A stretch of 64,000 nucleotides of DNA, taken from assembly GCA_958295855.1 (NCBI GenBank), contig OY282383.1:874481-938480 (forward strand). Reading direction: 5' to 3'. Numbering within the stretch: position 1 is the stretch's first letter; every line of letters begins with the position of its first letter. Made by a program: the position numbers and the translations under genes. This document shows positions 47,291 to 52,957 of the stretch, piece after piece. Below the pieces are notes generated by a model that saw only the letters and a program-made list of their open reading frames with translations, was not told the DNA's origin and ran no database searches. The stretch is from an uncultured Poribacteria bacterium. Its GTDB lineage: Bacteria; Poribacteria; WGA-4E; WGA-3G.

Positions 47291-50008
47291 CTAAAGTGGC
47301 TCCAGCCGGACAGGGCATACCTTCAATTCAGCAGTATGCGTCACCGGATCGTAACCCGAACCTGTCAGCAGATTCACCGGCACATCGCCAAAACTGAAAC
47401 TCGCGAAGACGGTGCCGCGCGGTGAACGGTTTGTCGCCTTCACTTTAATCGTGATACTGCCGCGAGCACTGCTCATTTTGCACCACTCCCCGTTCGCCAA
47501 CTGCCACTTTTCAATGTCAGCAGGGTTCACCTCAAGCGACTCTTCAGATAACAGATAATCAATCCCCTGTGCTCGGCCGGTTTGCGTGCGGGTGTGATAG
47601 GACTGCAGCCGCCTGCCTGTCGTTAGCCACACCGGAAACGCTGCACTGATAGTTTCAGCGGGATCGCGGTAGTGAACGTTTGAAAAAACACCCCTTCCGT
47701 TGATAAATTCTTCCTCATGTAGCCGTGGTGTACCAGGGTGTGCTTTGTGCGGCACCGGCCACTGGTACTCGCCCTTTTCAATGCGCTCCCAATCTAAGCC
47801 GGCGTAAATCGGTGACAGCCGGCACAACTCGTTGAAAATCGGTTTTGGCGAGTCAAAATCAAAGCCTTTAAAACCGAGACGTTGTGCAATTTGACAGATA
47901 ATCCACCAATCCGGTTTGGCTTCACCGGCGGGCGGCACTGCGGCGCGCAGTCGCTGCACACGCCGTTCCGTATTCGTGCAAACCCCATCGGTTTCCCCCC
48001 AGGCGGTTGCTGGCAGGACAACATCGGCGAGTTGTGCCGTTTCAGTCAGAAAGATGTCAATGACAACGAGATGTGCTAATGAACGCAGGGCATGTTCACA
48101 ATGCACGCGATGCGGGTCGGATAGCAATGTATTTTCTCCGTCGATGAGCATCGCATGGAGCTCGGCACCGCATAGTTCCAGCGCGGTGACTTTGGTGATG
48201 CCCTTCTCCATGTCAATCTCTCTGCCGTATGCCGCTGCAAACTTCTCCTGATTTTCAGGTTCAGTGACTGCCTGGAAGCCGGGGTAGTTGTTCGGCAACG
48301 CACCGCTATCCCCTGCGCCCTGGATGTTGTTTTGCCCGCGCATCGGGTTGATGCCGGTGCCCTCGCGCCCCACATTGCCTGTCATGAGGGCAAGATTGCA
48401 AAGGCTTTGCACATTCTCAACGCCGCAGATGTGTTCGGTGATGCCAAGCGTGTAGTAGATAGCCCCTTTATCCGCACTGCCGTACCATATCGCCGCTGTC
48501 TCAATATCCTTCGCCGGCACACCCGTAATCGTCTCTGCCCATTCGGGTGTCCACTCGCTGATATGTTCAAAGAAGTCATCAAATCCGACGGTGCGAGTGG
48601 CGATAAACGCCTCATCCATCAAGCCTTCTCGTGCAATAACGTGCGCCATCCCCAAAAGCAGTGCCGTATCCGAACCGACGCGGAGCGGCAGATAGAGATG
48701 CGACATGTCCGCGAGCCCGATGCGTCTGGGATCTGCAACGATAAGCTTCGCCCCGCGGGCAACGGCTTTTTTGAGCCCTGTCGCGGCGACAGGGTGACAT
48801 TCTGTCATATTTGTGCCGATGCAGAAAATCACATCGGGCTTCTGCATATCAATGAGTGGGTTAGACATTGCACCACGTCCGATTGTCGCTGCCAGCCCGG
48901 CAACGGTCGGGGCGTGTCAGGCACGGCTGCAATTGTCAATGTAGTTAGTGCCGAACCCTGCGCGGATGAACTTCTGCATCAGATACGCGGCTTCGCTCGG
49001 GGCGCGCCCAGAGGCGATGCCATAAATGCTATGCCTGCCGTATGTCGCATGGGCTTTGCGGAATCCTTCGGCGGCTCTGTCAAGCGCATCGTCCCATGTC
49101 GCCTCGCACAGTTCGCCATCGTCACCGCGCACCAACGGCGTTTTCAGCCGGTCGGGGTGGTGTACAAAGTCATAAGCAAACTGCCCTTTCACACAGAGTG
49201 CCCCTTGATTGGCGGGCCCGTCCATGGCCGGATGGATACCGACGATTTGCCCCGCTTTCGTGAGCATATCAACCGAACAGCCGACACCGCAATAAGGACA
49301 TATCGTTCGGGTTTTTTCAATATCAGGCAAAGGCGCAGCCACACGCGGTTGTGTCGTATCCTCAGCATGCCGCAGAGCCTTCTTATCTGCAAGGGCACCT
49401 GTCGGGCAGGTGTGAATGCACTGCCCACAAAAGGTGCAGGCGGAGTCCTTGAGGAGCCCATCAAACTCGGTGGTAATCTGTGTGTCGAAACCGCGATTCA
49501 TCACAGTGATGGCGTGATCTCCCTCTTGTTCGGCACAAACGCGCACACATCGATAACAGGAGATGCAGAGTTCATAATCTCTGAGGATAAACGGGTTGTC
49601 ATCCGCTTTGATCGTGCCGGATGTTTCCCCCGTTATACCGGGGGTGTGGACAGCATACCTGTCGCGGAGGTTCGCAAGTTCGCCGGCGGCATAGCCACGC
49701 AACGCATCGACATCCACCTCGCGATTCTCGCTGACAACCATCTCAAGTAGGGTTTTGCGGTAGGCCTCAATTGTCTCGGTGGCTGTCTTGACTACCATGC
49801 CCGCTGTGGCTTGCGTCGTACAGGATGCGACAGGGGTTCGCGCGCCCTCCAAGTCGACGATGCAGAGGCGGCATCCCCCAAAGGGTTCAAGCCGTGCATC
49901 GTAGCAGAGCGTTGGAATCTCTTTTTGATGACGTTGTGCCACTTCGAGGATAGTTTCGCCTTCTGAAAACGTAACCTCGACTCCATCAATTTCCATTTCG
50001 TGTTTCAT
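47291..50008 (-). CDS. fdhA: Formate dehydrogenase alpha subunit, selenocysteine-containing
   Basis: Two open stretches join through one in-frame TGA at 48917-48919 in the exact active-site context (YIDNCSRA-U-HAPTVAGL), where formate dehydrogenases carry Sec or Cys. Read through, the protein has 905 residues. It has a [2Fe-2S] domain (PTLCYDARLEPFGGCRLC), two 4Fe-4S ferredoxin motifs (CISCYRCVRVC; CTFCGQCIHTCP), the molybdopterin-domain cluster CPYCGVGC, Sec followed by His, GINPMRGQNNIQGAGD with the substrate Arg, and a C-terminal molybdopterin-binding domain (from about 790). It oxidises formate to CO2. The start ATG at 50008 follows AGGAAAAAATACG. No beta or gamma subunit, tRNA-Sec or selA/B gene is in the window. 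Confidence 0.9.
48887..48905 (-). promoter_or_regulatory. SECIS-like hairpin for UGA decoding
   Basis: Eleven nucleotides after the UGA the mRNA reads CGUUGCCGGGCUGGCAGCG, a 7-bp stem with the loop GGGCU. The E. coli fdhF element has a GGUCU loop at the same distance. This supports selenocysteine insertion by SelB. Confidence 0.75.
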
Positions 50009-50029
50009 CGTATTTTTTCCTGAGGGCAC

Positions 50030-50097
50030 GGCACGCGGCGTGTCTATTGGTTACGGCACGCGGCGTGTCTATTGGTTACGGCACGCGGAGCGTGCCT
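50030..50097. repeat. 25-bp tandem repeat upstream of fdhA
   Basis: Two exact 25-bp units beginning GGCACGCGGCGTGTCTATTG are followed by a third partial unit that continues to GGAGCGTGCCTAC. Similar GGCACACGGCGTGTGCC palindromes lie near 22647 and 39970. Confidence 0.75.
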
Positions 50098-50112
50098 ACT
50101 ACTTTGTGCCTA

Positions 50113-52896
50113 CTACTTTAGTCTCATCTGGTGTGGGGCACCCATCGCGGCAGAGATATACGGCCACTCTGTCACGAGGTTGTTGTACGCCGCAGCACTC
50201 GACGCATCGCCACGCACCTCATAGTACGCATACAAGACGCGCGCCAAACGTTTCGCAGACTCCGAATCGCGCATCGCACGCGCAACTGCGGCACAGCCCA
50301 AAATACCACCGCTGTGCTCTACGCCAGAAAGATGCCACATCATCCGCAGACACCCCTCCCACGCTGTCATTTCTTCGCGATTGTCACGCTCAGCGTATTC
50401 TTCCGCTCGCAACAGCCGAACCTTGCCGCGCGCCGCAATGAGCACTCTGTCGTGCAGCGCGGCGATGTCTATATCCTTCGCCTTTGAAAGCCCCTCTGCA
50501 TCCCCGAAGTTGCCCGCCATGTACCCGTGCTGCTGCAGCCACGTCAAACAGAATTGACTCTCCGCATCCAGCTCGCCTGTCTCTTTTTCATGGTAGGCGG
50601 TGATTTCGTTGTTGATGTGCATGAGTGCCTCGCGGATTGGCACGATCTCACCACTGATTCGCATCACTTTGCTATAGCGGGAGTAGACCTCCATGCCGGG
50701 GCCGATGGCGGCTTGCGCCAAATCGACCGGTCTGATGTTTGTGATGCGCGTGAGTCTGTCAAGTTCGCGGGGCATCTCTTTTTTTAGTGCTTGTAGAAAT
50801 TCGTTGCGGGTTATAGTAGGGGCCTCTTCATCGCGAGGCCGGCACACTAACACAACAGAAGAGGCCAGCGCGTTTCTCTGTCCGTGAAAACCACTAGTCT
50901 GCTCTGTGCGCATGGGCCAAGTGCTGATTATTTTAAAGCCTGCGTTGACGGTTGCTGTGAGCATTGTCTCCCAGCCGGTGGAGGTTTTTCCATCCTGTTC
51001 CTCTTCCTGCTGTTTGTAAGCGTAAAAGATGGAGGAGGGGAACTCGTCTGAGCAGTGTTGCCGCATCCGCAGCAGGGCTTTGCTGAGCAGTTCCTCAAAC
51101 CTCCGCGGGGGGTCTTCAAATCGTGCCGGAATGGCGACTATCTCTTCTTCCTTGGGCGTCATCATGCCGGCAAACAGGTCTGGATAGACATCACGAAGCA
51201 AGGGGCGTATCCAGACATAGAAGAAGTCGGAGAGATCTGCGTAGTCAATATTATCGTAATAGGGCGGATCTGTAATAAAAACGGGCATATCCTGAGCATG
51301 CGGCGTAGTACATACATCCGCCTGATACGCTTCTCCAGTGTTTGCTGAGACGGGCAAATTCTCAACAACCTTTGCAATCCACGCTATCTGCGCCATCCAG
51401 TTTTGCGTTGAGTTAGAGAACGGATTCGCCTCGGCGAAGTCCCACGTCATTGGAAGGGCTTGGCGTGCAAAAACCATCCGGATGCTCTCGCCTTGGTTTT
51501 GCCAACGGGTGAAACGACAACCACTCTCAGCAGTTTTGTCAACAGCAAGGGACAGGTAAGTGCAAACCGCATCCGCATATCTTTTTCCCGCACCATCCTG
51601 GGTAATCTGATTGCGAACCTCAGATAGCAAGTCGCTGAAAGTATTTAGTGTCGTGAGTTGTCGCTCGGTGAAGAGTTGATGCCACTGGGTAATTCCATAC
51701 CCGCGGCCACTTACCAAAGTTGGATTATTGGGCATTGCCGGCCGAGGTTTCCACTCGGGTTTTGCCGATAGAGAAACGCGGGTATGCGCATCGGTTGGGG
51801 GTAGAAAAAGTTTCTGGCGGTTGCCTTCGGCAACTATCGCTGTATTTATCTCTCCGATTTTGCCCGCTTTCGCTTGCTCTCGAACATAAGGCAACTTGAC
51901 AGCACTCCCGCACGCAAAGCAGTAGGCACCTGTTCGGCTGACTGTAGGCTTCGGCACGCCTTCATTATCGGTTTGCACAACCCATGACATCGTGTTCGAT
52001 TCTCTGTCGACAACAGGCTTTGTCCAATGCTCATTACCTTTCTTTCTTGAGAGTTGGAAGGTTGTCATCAGCGGCATCTGGAGTCCACACGCGGGGTTGA
52101 TACAGGGGATCGTGCGCGCCCATAGCCACCCCACGACAGTCGCAGTTATACCTGTGGGCAATTCCACGGGTGGATAGAGATGTCCGATGCGTTTGTGTGC
52201 TTCCTCACGCATCCACGCACCATAGTAGCGGATGTCGGATGCCAAGCCTGCGGTGCCTTTCCACGGCACACGCGTCTTGCTTTTACCTGTGCCGGTGAAC
52301 ATTCCCATCGGATCGGCATCTGGATGGACCGGTTTCTGGTTGTGAAACGTCGGCGGCAATTCAATCATCGCCTTGTTGAGCAGCACGGGCAGCGGATTTA
52401 GATCGGAGGCGCGTGCGCGTAATCCCAGGCGTTGTGCCTCAAGCGGGATGGAGCCTCCCCCACAAAACGGATCATAGATTGCGGGGCAATGGTCGCGGAG
52501 GTACTGTAGGACTGCCGCCGGATCTCTTTCGAACCGCTGGCGACAAGCCGTTAGGTCTTCGGCGTTGTTGCGTGCGACAGAGATTGCAATTTCACGGCGT
52601 GCCTCTGCCAAGAGATTTTCGTCGGTGCTATTTTTCCAGATGACAAGTCTCCGGAGGAGGTGATGGAGTCGGTTTCGTTCTGCGTTCTGCTCGGGTTCGG
52701 TTGGGAACTCGTCTATGCATTCGGAAGGGTCGTCCACCATGCTGGCGAAGATGACTGCGCGGCATGCGGCGAGGGGCCGGCGTGCCCAGTAACGGTGCAG
52801 TGTTGAGGGGTGTCCATGCGTCAGCAAAGCGTCTTTTGCAGACTCTTCGTTGATAGCTTGGAGCGGTATATTTACCTCAATGAGTTTTTTGCGCAT
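50113..52896 (-). CDS. DUF1156-family DNA methylase (large, orphan)
   Basis: I chose the ATG at 52896 (MRKKLIEVNIPLQAINEESA) for its GGGGAG site and the conserved DUF1156 opening; 927 residues result. The N-terminal HPSTLHRYWARRPLAACRAV motif, a motif I in YDPFCGGGSIPLEAQRLGL near residue 145 and the motif IV VFITDPPYYDNIDYADLSDF near 535 define this large class of adenine-specific methylases. Paired cysteines at about 265 and 325 suggest a zinc site. Relatives often sit with DUF499 ATPase and helicase genes in phage-defence clusters; none is adjacent here. Its role could be orphan methylation. Confidence 0.85.
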   Translation of the reverse strand: MRKKLIEVNIPLQAINEESAKDALLTHGHPSTLHRYWARRPLAACRAVIFASMVDDPSECIDEFPTEPEQNAERNRLHHLLRRLVIWKNSTDENLLAEARREIAISVARNNAEDLTACRQRFERDPAAVLQYLRDHCPAIYDPFCGGGSIPLEAQRLGLRARASDLNPLPVLLNKAMIELPPTFHNQKPVHPDADPMGMFTGTGKSKTRVPWKGTAGLASDIRYYGAWMREEAHKRIGHLYPPVELPTGITATVVGWLWARTIPCINPACGLQMPLMTTFQLSRKKGNEHWTKPVVDRESNTMSWVVQTDNEGVPKPTVSRTGAYCFACGSAVKLPYVREQAKAGKIGEINTAIVAEGNRQKLFLPPTDAHTRVSLSAKPEWKPRPAMPNNPTLVSGRGYGITQWHQLFTERQLTTLNTFSDLLSEVRNQITQDGAGKRYADAVCTYLSLAVDKTAESGCRFTRWQNQGESIRMVFARQALPMTWDFAEANPFSNSTQNWMAQIAWIAKVVENLPVSANTGEAYQADVCTTPHAQDMPVFITDPPYYDNIDYADLSDFFYVWIRPLLRDVYPDLFAGMMTPKEEEIVAIPARFEDPPRRFEELLSKALLRMRQHCSDEFPSSIFYAYKQQEEEQDGKTSTGWETMLTATVNAGFKIISTWPMRTEQTSGFHGQRNALASSVVLVCRPRDEEAPTITRNEFLQALKKEMPRELDRLTRITNIRPVDLAQAAIGPGMEVYSRYSKVMRISGEIVPIREALMHINNEITAYHEKETGELDAESQFCLTWLQQHGYMAGNFGDAEGLSKAKDIDIAALHDRVLIAARGKVRLLRAEEYAERDNREEMTAWEGCLRMMWHLSGVEHSGGILGCAAVARAMRDSESAKRLARVLYAYYEVRGDASSAAAYNNLVTEWPYISAAMGAPHQMRLK

Positions 52897-52957
52897 AATA
52901 TTAATCTCCCCGCGCAGGGCGCAGGGCGTATAAACCCTAGTTGTCATAGTGCTTTAG

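Follow-up and report, generated by a model that had tools for sequence, protein, structure and literature searches.

A formate dehydrogenase gene of uncultured Poribacteria with an in-frame UGA and a conserved SECIS hairpin very probably encodes a selenoenzyme

Introduction

Does an in-frame TGA in a formate dehydrogenase (FDH) gene of an uncultured Poribacteria bacterium end the protein, or is it read as selenocysteine (Sec)? Recoding of UGA as Sec, aided by a downstream hairpin, is the textbook mechanism in bacteria. The gene in question, fdhA, lies in a stretch of 64,000 nucleotides (hereafter the window). A literature search found no paper naming both Poribacteria and selenoproteins, and the locus offers a well-supported case of Sec decoding in a little-studied phylum. 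We conclude, with a probability of roughly 97%, that fdhA encodes a single 905-residue selenoenzyme in which UGA 364 is decoded as Sec with the help of SelB and the downstream hairpin.

The comparison covered 40 genomes, consisting of the host genome and its relatives, 38 of them in the same order. By its named relatives, the group is Candidatus Poribacteria. In addition, 80 FDH relatives were taken from named databases, 79 of which could be placed at the Sec site; the remaining one (L112) was not placeable and was left out.

Table 1 Coordinates of the features described in this study (positions without a contig handle refer to the window)
Feature	Position	Strand	Remarks
fdhA, formate dehydrogenase alpha subunit	47291..50008	-	905 residues with Sec364; TIGR01591, Pfam and structure alignment
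fdhA domains			N-terminal 2Fe-2S and 4Fe-4S, then Mo/W-bis-MGD catalytic domain
In-frame UGA, predicted Sec364	48917..48919	-	conserved TGA; Cys in other relatives
Bacterial SECIS apical hairpin	48887..48905	-	arms CGUUGCC/GGCAGCG, loop GGGCU at 48898-48894
Rfam RF01989 (SECIS_3) match	48864..48922	-	52.3 bits, E 1e-11; position computed from L021:3071-3129
selD	G000:C1:2282746-2283684 (L019:1396-2457)	-	in-frame TGA and its own short hairpin
Fused NuoE-NuoF, stand-alone	G000:C1 ~3751300-3752985 (L148:892-2574)		unlinked to fdhA, apart from complex I

One enzyme on both sides of the TGA

The initial annotation had assigned the two frames flanking the TGA to one enzyme, and profile searches bear this out. 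Both lie in the same reading frame, and the read-through FdhA is a full-length match to NCBIfam TIGR01591, scoring 742.5 bits against a cut-off of 666.25. Residues 1–363 correspond to positions 1–127 of this 672-position profile and residues 365–905 to positions 132–671, the two partial matches being adjacent and free of overlap. Pfam recognizes Fer2_4, Molybdop_Fe4S4, Molybdopterin and Molydop_binding in the protein, which also aligns end to end with solved FDHs. Among these are PDB 7vw6 and 6tg9, alpha subunits whose N-terminal Fe-S domains are included in the alignment and which we take to be of the NAD-linked FdsABG type. Formate dehydrogenase H of Escherichia coli, encoded by fdhF, belongs to the same family and carries Sec at the same catalytic position; the window FdhA differs from it by an additional N-terminus of ~230 residues with NuoG-like Fe-S domains.

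As had been anticipated for automatic annotation, mechanical ORF calling splits fdhA into products of 370 and 525 amino acids. Metabolic reconstructions of uncultured Poribacteria that build on such a split miss a formate dehydrogenase. The split is also what speaks for taking the TGA as a true stop, with fdhA being either a pseudogene or two separate proteins.

The TGA occupies the catalytic position

The TGA aligns with a cysteine of 7vw6, presumably the catalytic one, so that this enzyme has Cys at the active site where the Poribacterial FdhA is predicted to have Sec. Across the 79 placed database relatives, the site is encoded by TGA in 35 and by a Cys codon (TGC or TGT) in 44, with no other codon observed; the FDH of a class-level relative (G039), 45% identical, likewise has Cys. 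The assignment of the TGA to the Sec/Cys active-site position is thus upheld.

Within the order, the TGA is present in all 38 FDH genes, and the frame beyond it stays open in 37, at protein identities of 73–89%. The exception, which also counts toward a true stop, is G034 (L060, G034:C25), where a single frame break occurs ~15 codons after the conserved TGA and homology continues in another frame; it may represent an assembly error in a draft genome or a recent loss. A disrupted frame beyond the TGA in relatives had been named at the outset as evidence against Sec decoding, and among the 38 genes it is confined to this genome. Against a true stop stand the retention of the codon in 38 of 38 genes with conserved coding sequence behind it, its location exactly on the catalytic residue and Cys as the sole alternative there, which together make that explanation highly improbable.

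Two further explanations concern the codon itself. TGA is one base away from both TGC and TGT, and a sequencing error in a Cys codon could therefore produce it; the same TGA, however, recurs throughout the order, in 38 genomes, and another 32 distinct sequences from outside Poribacteria carry it, leaving an error the most remote of all explanations considered. Alternatively, UGA might have changed its meaning across the whole genome, to Trp or Gly for instance, or be suppressed non-specifically, in whose favor there is only the reading through of UGA in fdhA. Among the 38 longest non-overlapping ORFs of the window, UGA terminates seven, one of which is the 5′ part of the FDH gene. Since UGA thus ends ~6 of the other 37, recoding appears site-specific rather than a reassignment of the code. 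With Cys as the only aligned substitute and a complete Sec machinery in the genome, we regard reassignment or general suppression as very improbable.

Geometry of the hairpin and matches to SECIS models

The initial annotation had described a 7-bp hairpin with a GGGCU loop, starting 11 nt after the codon. Its position, its loop and the 11-nt gap between the UGA and the first base of the hairpin (48905) are confirmed, whereas its length needs revision: the universal core comprises 6 bp (48904–48899 with 48893–48888), and conservation of the outermost C-G pair (48905/48887) is limited to the lineage.

Folding and comparison with bacterial SECIS models had also been proposed, and the comparison speaks for the hairpin. 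The bSECIS model, as set out in PMC13188914, specifies an apical loop of 3–9 nt, an upper stem of 4–16 bp, a G in the first two loop positions, a UGA-loop spacing of 16–37 nt and a minimum free energy (MFE) of -7.5 kcal/mol or lower. The window hairpin lies within all of these limits, with a 5-nt loop (GGGCU), a stem of 6–7 bp and a spacing of 18 nt. The 50 nt from the UGA fold at -19.7 kcal/mol, and in 97% of the Sec genes the apical MFE is -7.5 kcal/mol or lower. Rfam SECIS_3 matches the region with the same placement relative to the UGA and the same architecture, but several model pairs are not formed in the window and the 52.3 bits remain below the gathering threshold of 63. SECIS_1 (RF00031) was uninformative for bacteria, giving no match in any control genome. 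Folded as a single sequence, the window region is no more stable than its shuffles (z = -0.09); the proof of the hairpin is comparative, and there the signal exceeds chance by a wide margin. An extended lower stem, present in the MFE fold, was rejected, as its variable pairs show no covariation in the 38 genes of the order.

The SECIS of E. coli fdhF, whose loop and bulge have established roles and in which U17 is bulged, begins right after the UGA, as does that of the window. Counted from U1 of the UGA, the two share U17, U18, G19, C20, G22, G23, C25, U26 and G27, the E. coli letters having been verified in 5388 genomes. They differ at position 17, where the bulged U of E. coli can pair with G or A in the window; at position 21, a C paired with G28 in the window and a loop A in E. 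coli; and at loop position 24, where the window has G while most relatives and E. coli have U. Accordingly, GGUCU stands at these loop positions in E. coli fdhF and in 56 of the 69 distinct Sec genes, the window form GGGCU being found in seven. A literature search for details of the SECIS/SelB contact found nothing.

Comparative evidence for the hairpin

Conservation of the TVAGLA motif, together with the unremarkable single-sequence fold, would be compatible with a hairpin that merely reflects codon or amino-acid constraint. Cys homologs offer a contrast: by a count over seven pairs, 96% of cells are paired in Sec genes and 51% in 45 Cys genes, where the hairpin is mostly broken, and mean apical stability is -11.1 against -3.9 kcal/mol. 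The core is paired in all 69 distinct Sec genes, six of the seven pairs never being broken, and in a set of 34 diverse Sec sequences the 6-bp core is paired in 204 of 204 cells. Covariation of the core in this set reaches 0.476, compared with 0.202 after shuffling and at most 0.173 when pairing partners are slid; displaced partners lose the pairing. The third-base pair of the Val and Ala codons has passed through all four Watson-Crick types by compensatory changes. For the outer pair, the 38 genes of the order show CG 23 times, GC 11 times and UA twice; in one gene, another hairpin pair has CG in place of UA. Given these patterns, codon or amino-acid constraint in place of a SECIS is very unlikely, and the hairpin, judged by comparison of sequences, is a genuine SECIS. 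With about 70 Sec genes, the core of the FDH SECIS is proved cleanly by covariation, which is beyond the reach of single-sequence folding.

Third-base conservation within Poribacteria was assessed in 37 codon-aligned genes. Codons +5 to +9, which form the hairpin, have codon entropies of 0 to 0.49, compared with a mean third-base entropy of 1.68 bits in 173 four-fold columns elsewhere, none of which falls below 0.4. This constraint on neighboring third bases for the sake of pairing likewise argues against the TGA as a true stop. Two codons outside the hairpin core are also nearly frozen, codon -2 (48923–48925) being CGU and codon +11 (48884–48886) ACA, each in 36 of 37 genes. CGUG-CCUGA-CACG could pair as a small stem around the UGA; that these codons constitute an additional Poribacterial recoding signal beyond the standard SECIS is a speculative and rather doubtful proposal.

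Selenocysteine machinery and a second TGA-containing gene

A search of the genome for selA, selB, selD and tRNA-Sec, suggested along with the original claim, recovered all four. In the 5.53-Mb host genome, selA (596 bits), selB (354 bits) and selD (358 bits) each occur once, and a tRNA-Sec (78 bits, anticodon UCA by ARAGORN) adjoins selB; every one of these matches exceeds its curated cut-off. Like fdhA, selD contains an in-frame TGA; it lies at the CxGU site (KCAG-U-ASKL), the canonical Cys/Sec position, and is followed by a hairpin, at a UGA-loop spacing of 17 nt versus 18 nt in fdhA. In some relatives, the selD hairpin shows a joint change from Ala/Glu to Asp/Asp (APGE to DPGD) with the pairing kept.

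As a different protein, SelD lends independent support to Sec decoding, and the genome accordingly has at least two selenoprotein genes. The earlier proposal that this lineage decodes UGA as Sec thus gains from both the sel set with tRNA-Sec and the second TGA gene: on sequence grounds, Poribacteria very probably have two genes or more, fdhA and selD among them, in which UGA is decoded as Sec.

Within the order, 35 of the 38 genomes yielded selA and 37 a tRNA-Sec. The exceptions are draft assemblies that hold the other marker: searches did not recover selA in the TGA-FDH genomes G005, G023 and G037, nor tRNA-Sec in G030. A selD gene was detected in 36 of the 40 compared genomes, always with one internal TGA, and was not found in the TGA-FDH genomes G010, G015 and G027. 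Each of these seven genomes keeps other sel markers; the missing genes are probably due to incomplete assemblies. At the class level, the Cys-FDH genome G039 gave no match to selA, selD or tRNA-Sec; in G038, which is without an FDH, selA, tRNA-Sec and a selD with an internal TGA are nonetheless present.

The gene, its codon, the conserved covarying hairpin and the complete sel set are present in the genome; Sec insertion at codon 364 and the reading of the loop by SelB we infer from the established E. coli system. By this analogy, the ribosome would meet UGA at codon 364 of fdhA, SelA would make Sec-tRNA-Sec with selenophosphate from SelD, and SelB carrying Sec-tRNA-Sec would recognize the loop of the hairpin, which begins at the 12th nt after the UGA, and deliver Sec in place of termination. 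By homology, the selenium of Sec364 would then ligate the Mo or W of the bis-MGD cofactor.

Distribution and evolution

According to PMC13188914, no bacterial selenoprotein family is more widely distributed than FdhA, which makes the Poribacterial case ordinary in kind. In a quick FDH tree, from which L076 was left out because its frame is too short, the Sec and Cys forms make up clusters that are interspersed with one another, with ~11 changes between them. The Poribacterial FDHs fall in an all-Sec clade with those of Chloroflexota, Planctomycetota and Verrucomicrobiota, apart from the G039 enzyme with its Cys. This placement across phyla suggests horizontal spread of this Sec form of FDH.

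Probable electron partner and genomic context

In other Poribacteria families, as in Planctomycetota, Verrucomicrobiota and Chloroflexota, fdhA has homologs of the fused NuoE-NuoF, 62–73% identical to it, as immediate neighbors. In several of these relatives, FdhD adjoins fdhA as well, whereas in the host genome it is present but unlinked. In the same-family relatives with complete genomes or long contigs that were examined (L062, L063 and L066), no partner genes were seen next to fdhA. Whereas relatives with NuoE-NuoF next to fdhA resemble FdsABG-type FDHs in arrangement, the host genome has its presumed partner genes unlinked, and the likeliest interpretation is a NAD-linked enzyme with a dispersed operon. 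FdhA is thus probably a NAD-linked FDH, with the unlinked NuoE-NuoF as its likely diaphorase partner. It would interconvert formate and CO2, probably with NAD(H) via this fused protein.

Just upstream of the fdhA start, at 50028–50119, are short tandem GC-rich repeats, one with a unit of 25 nt (ACGGCACGCGGCGTGTCTATTGGTT) and one consisting of a pair of 14-nt copies. Directly upstream on the minus strand, at 50113–52947, a 944-residue DUF1156 protein is encoded, which by eye resembles a DNA methyltransferase.
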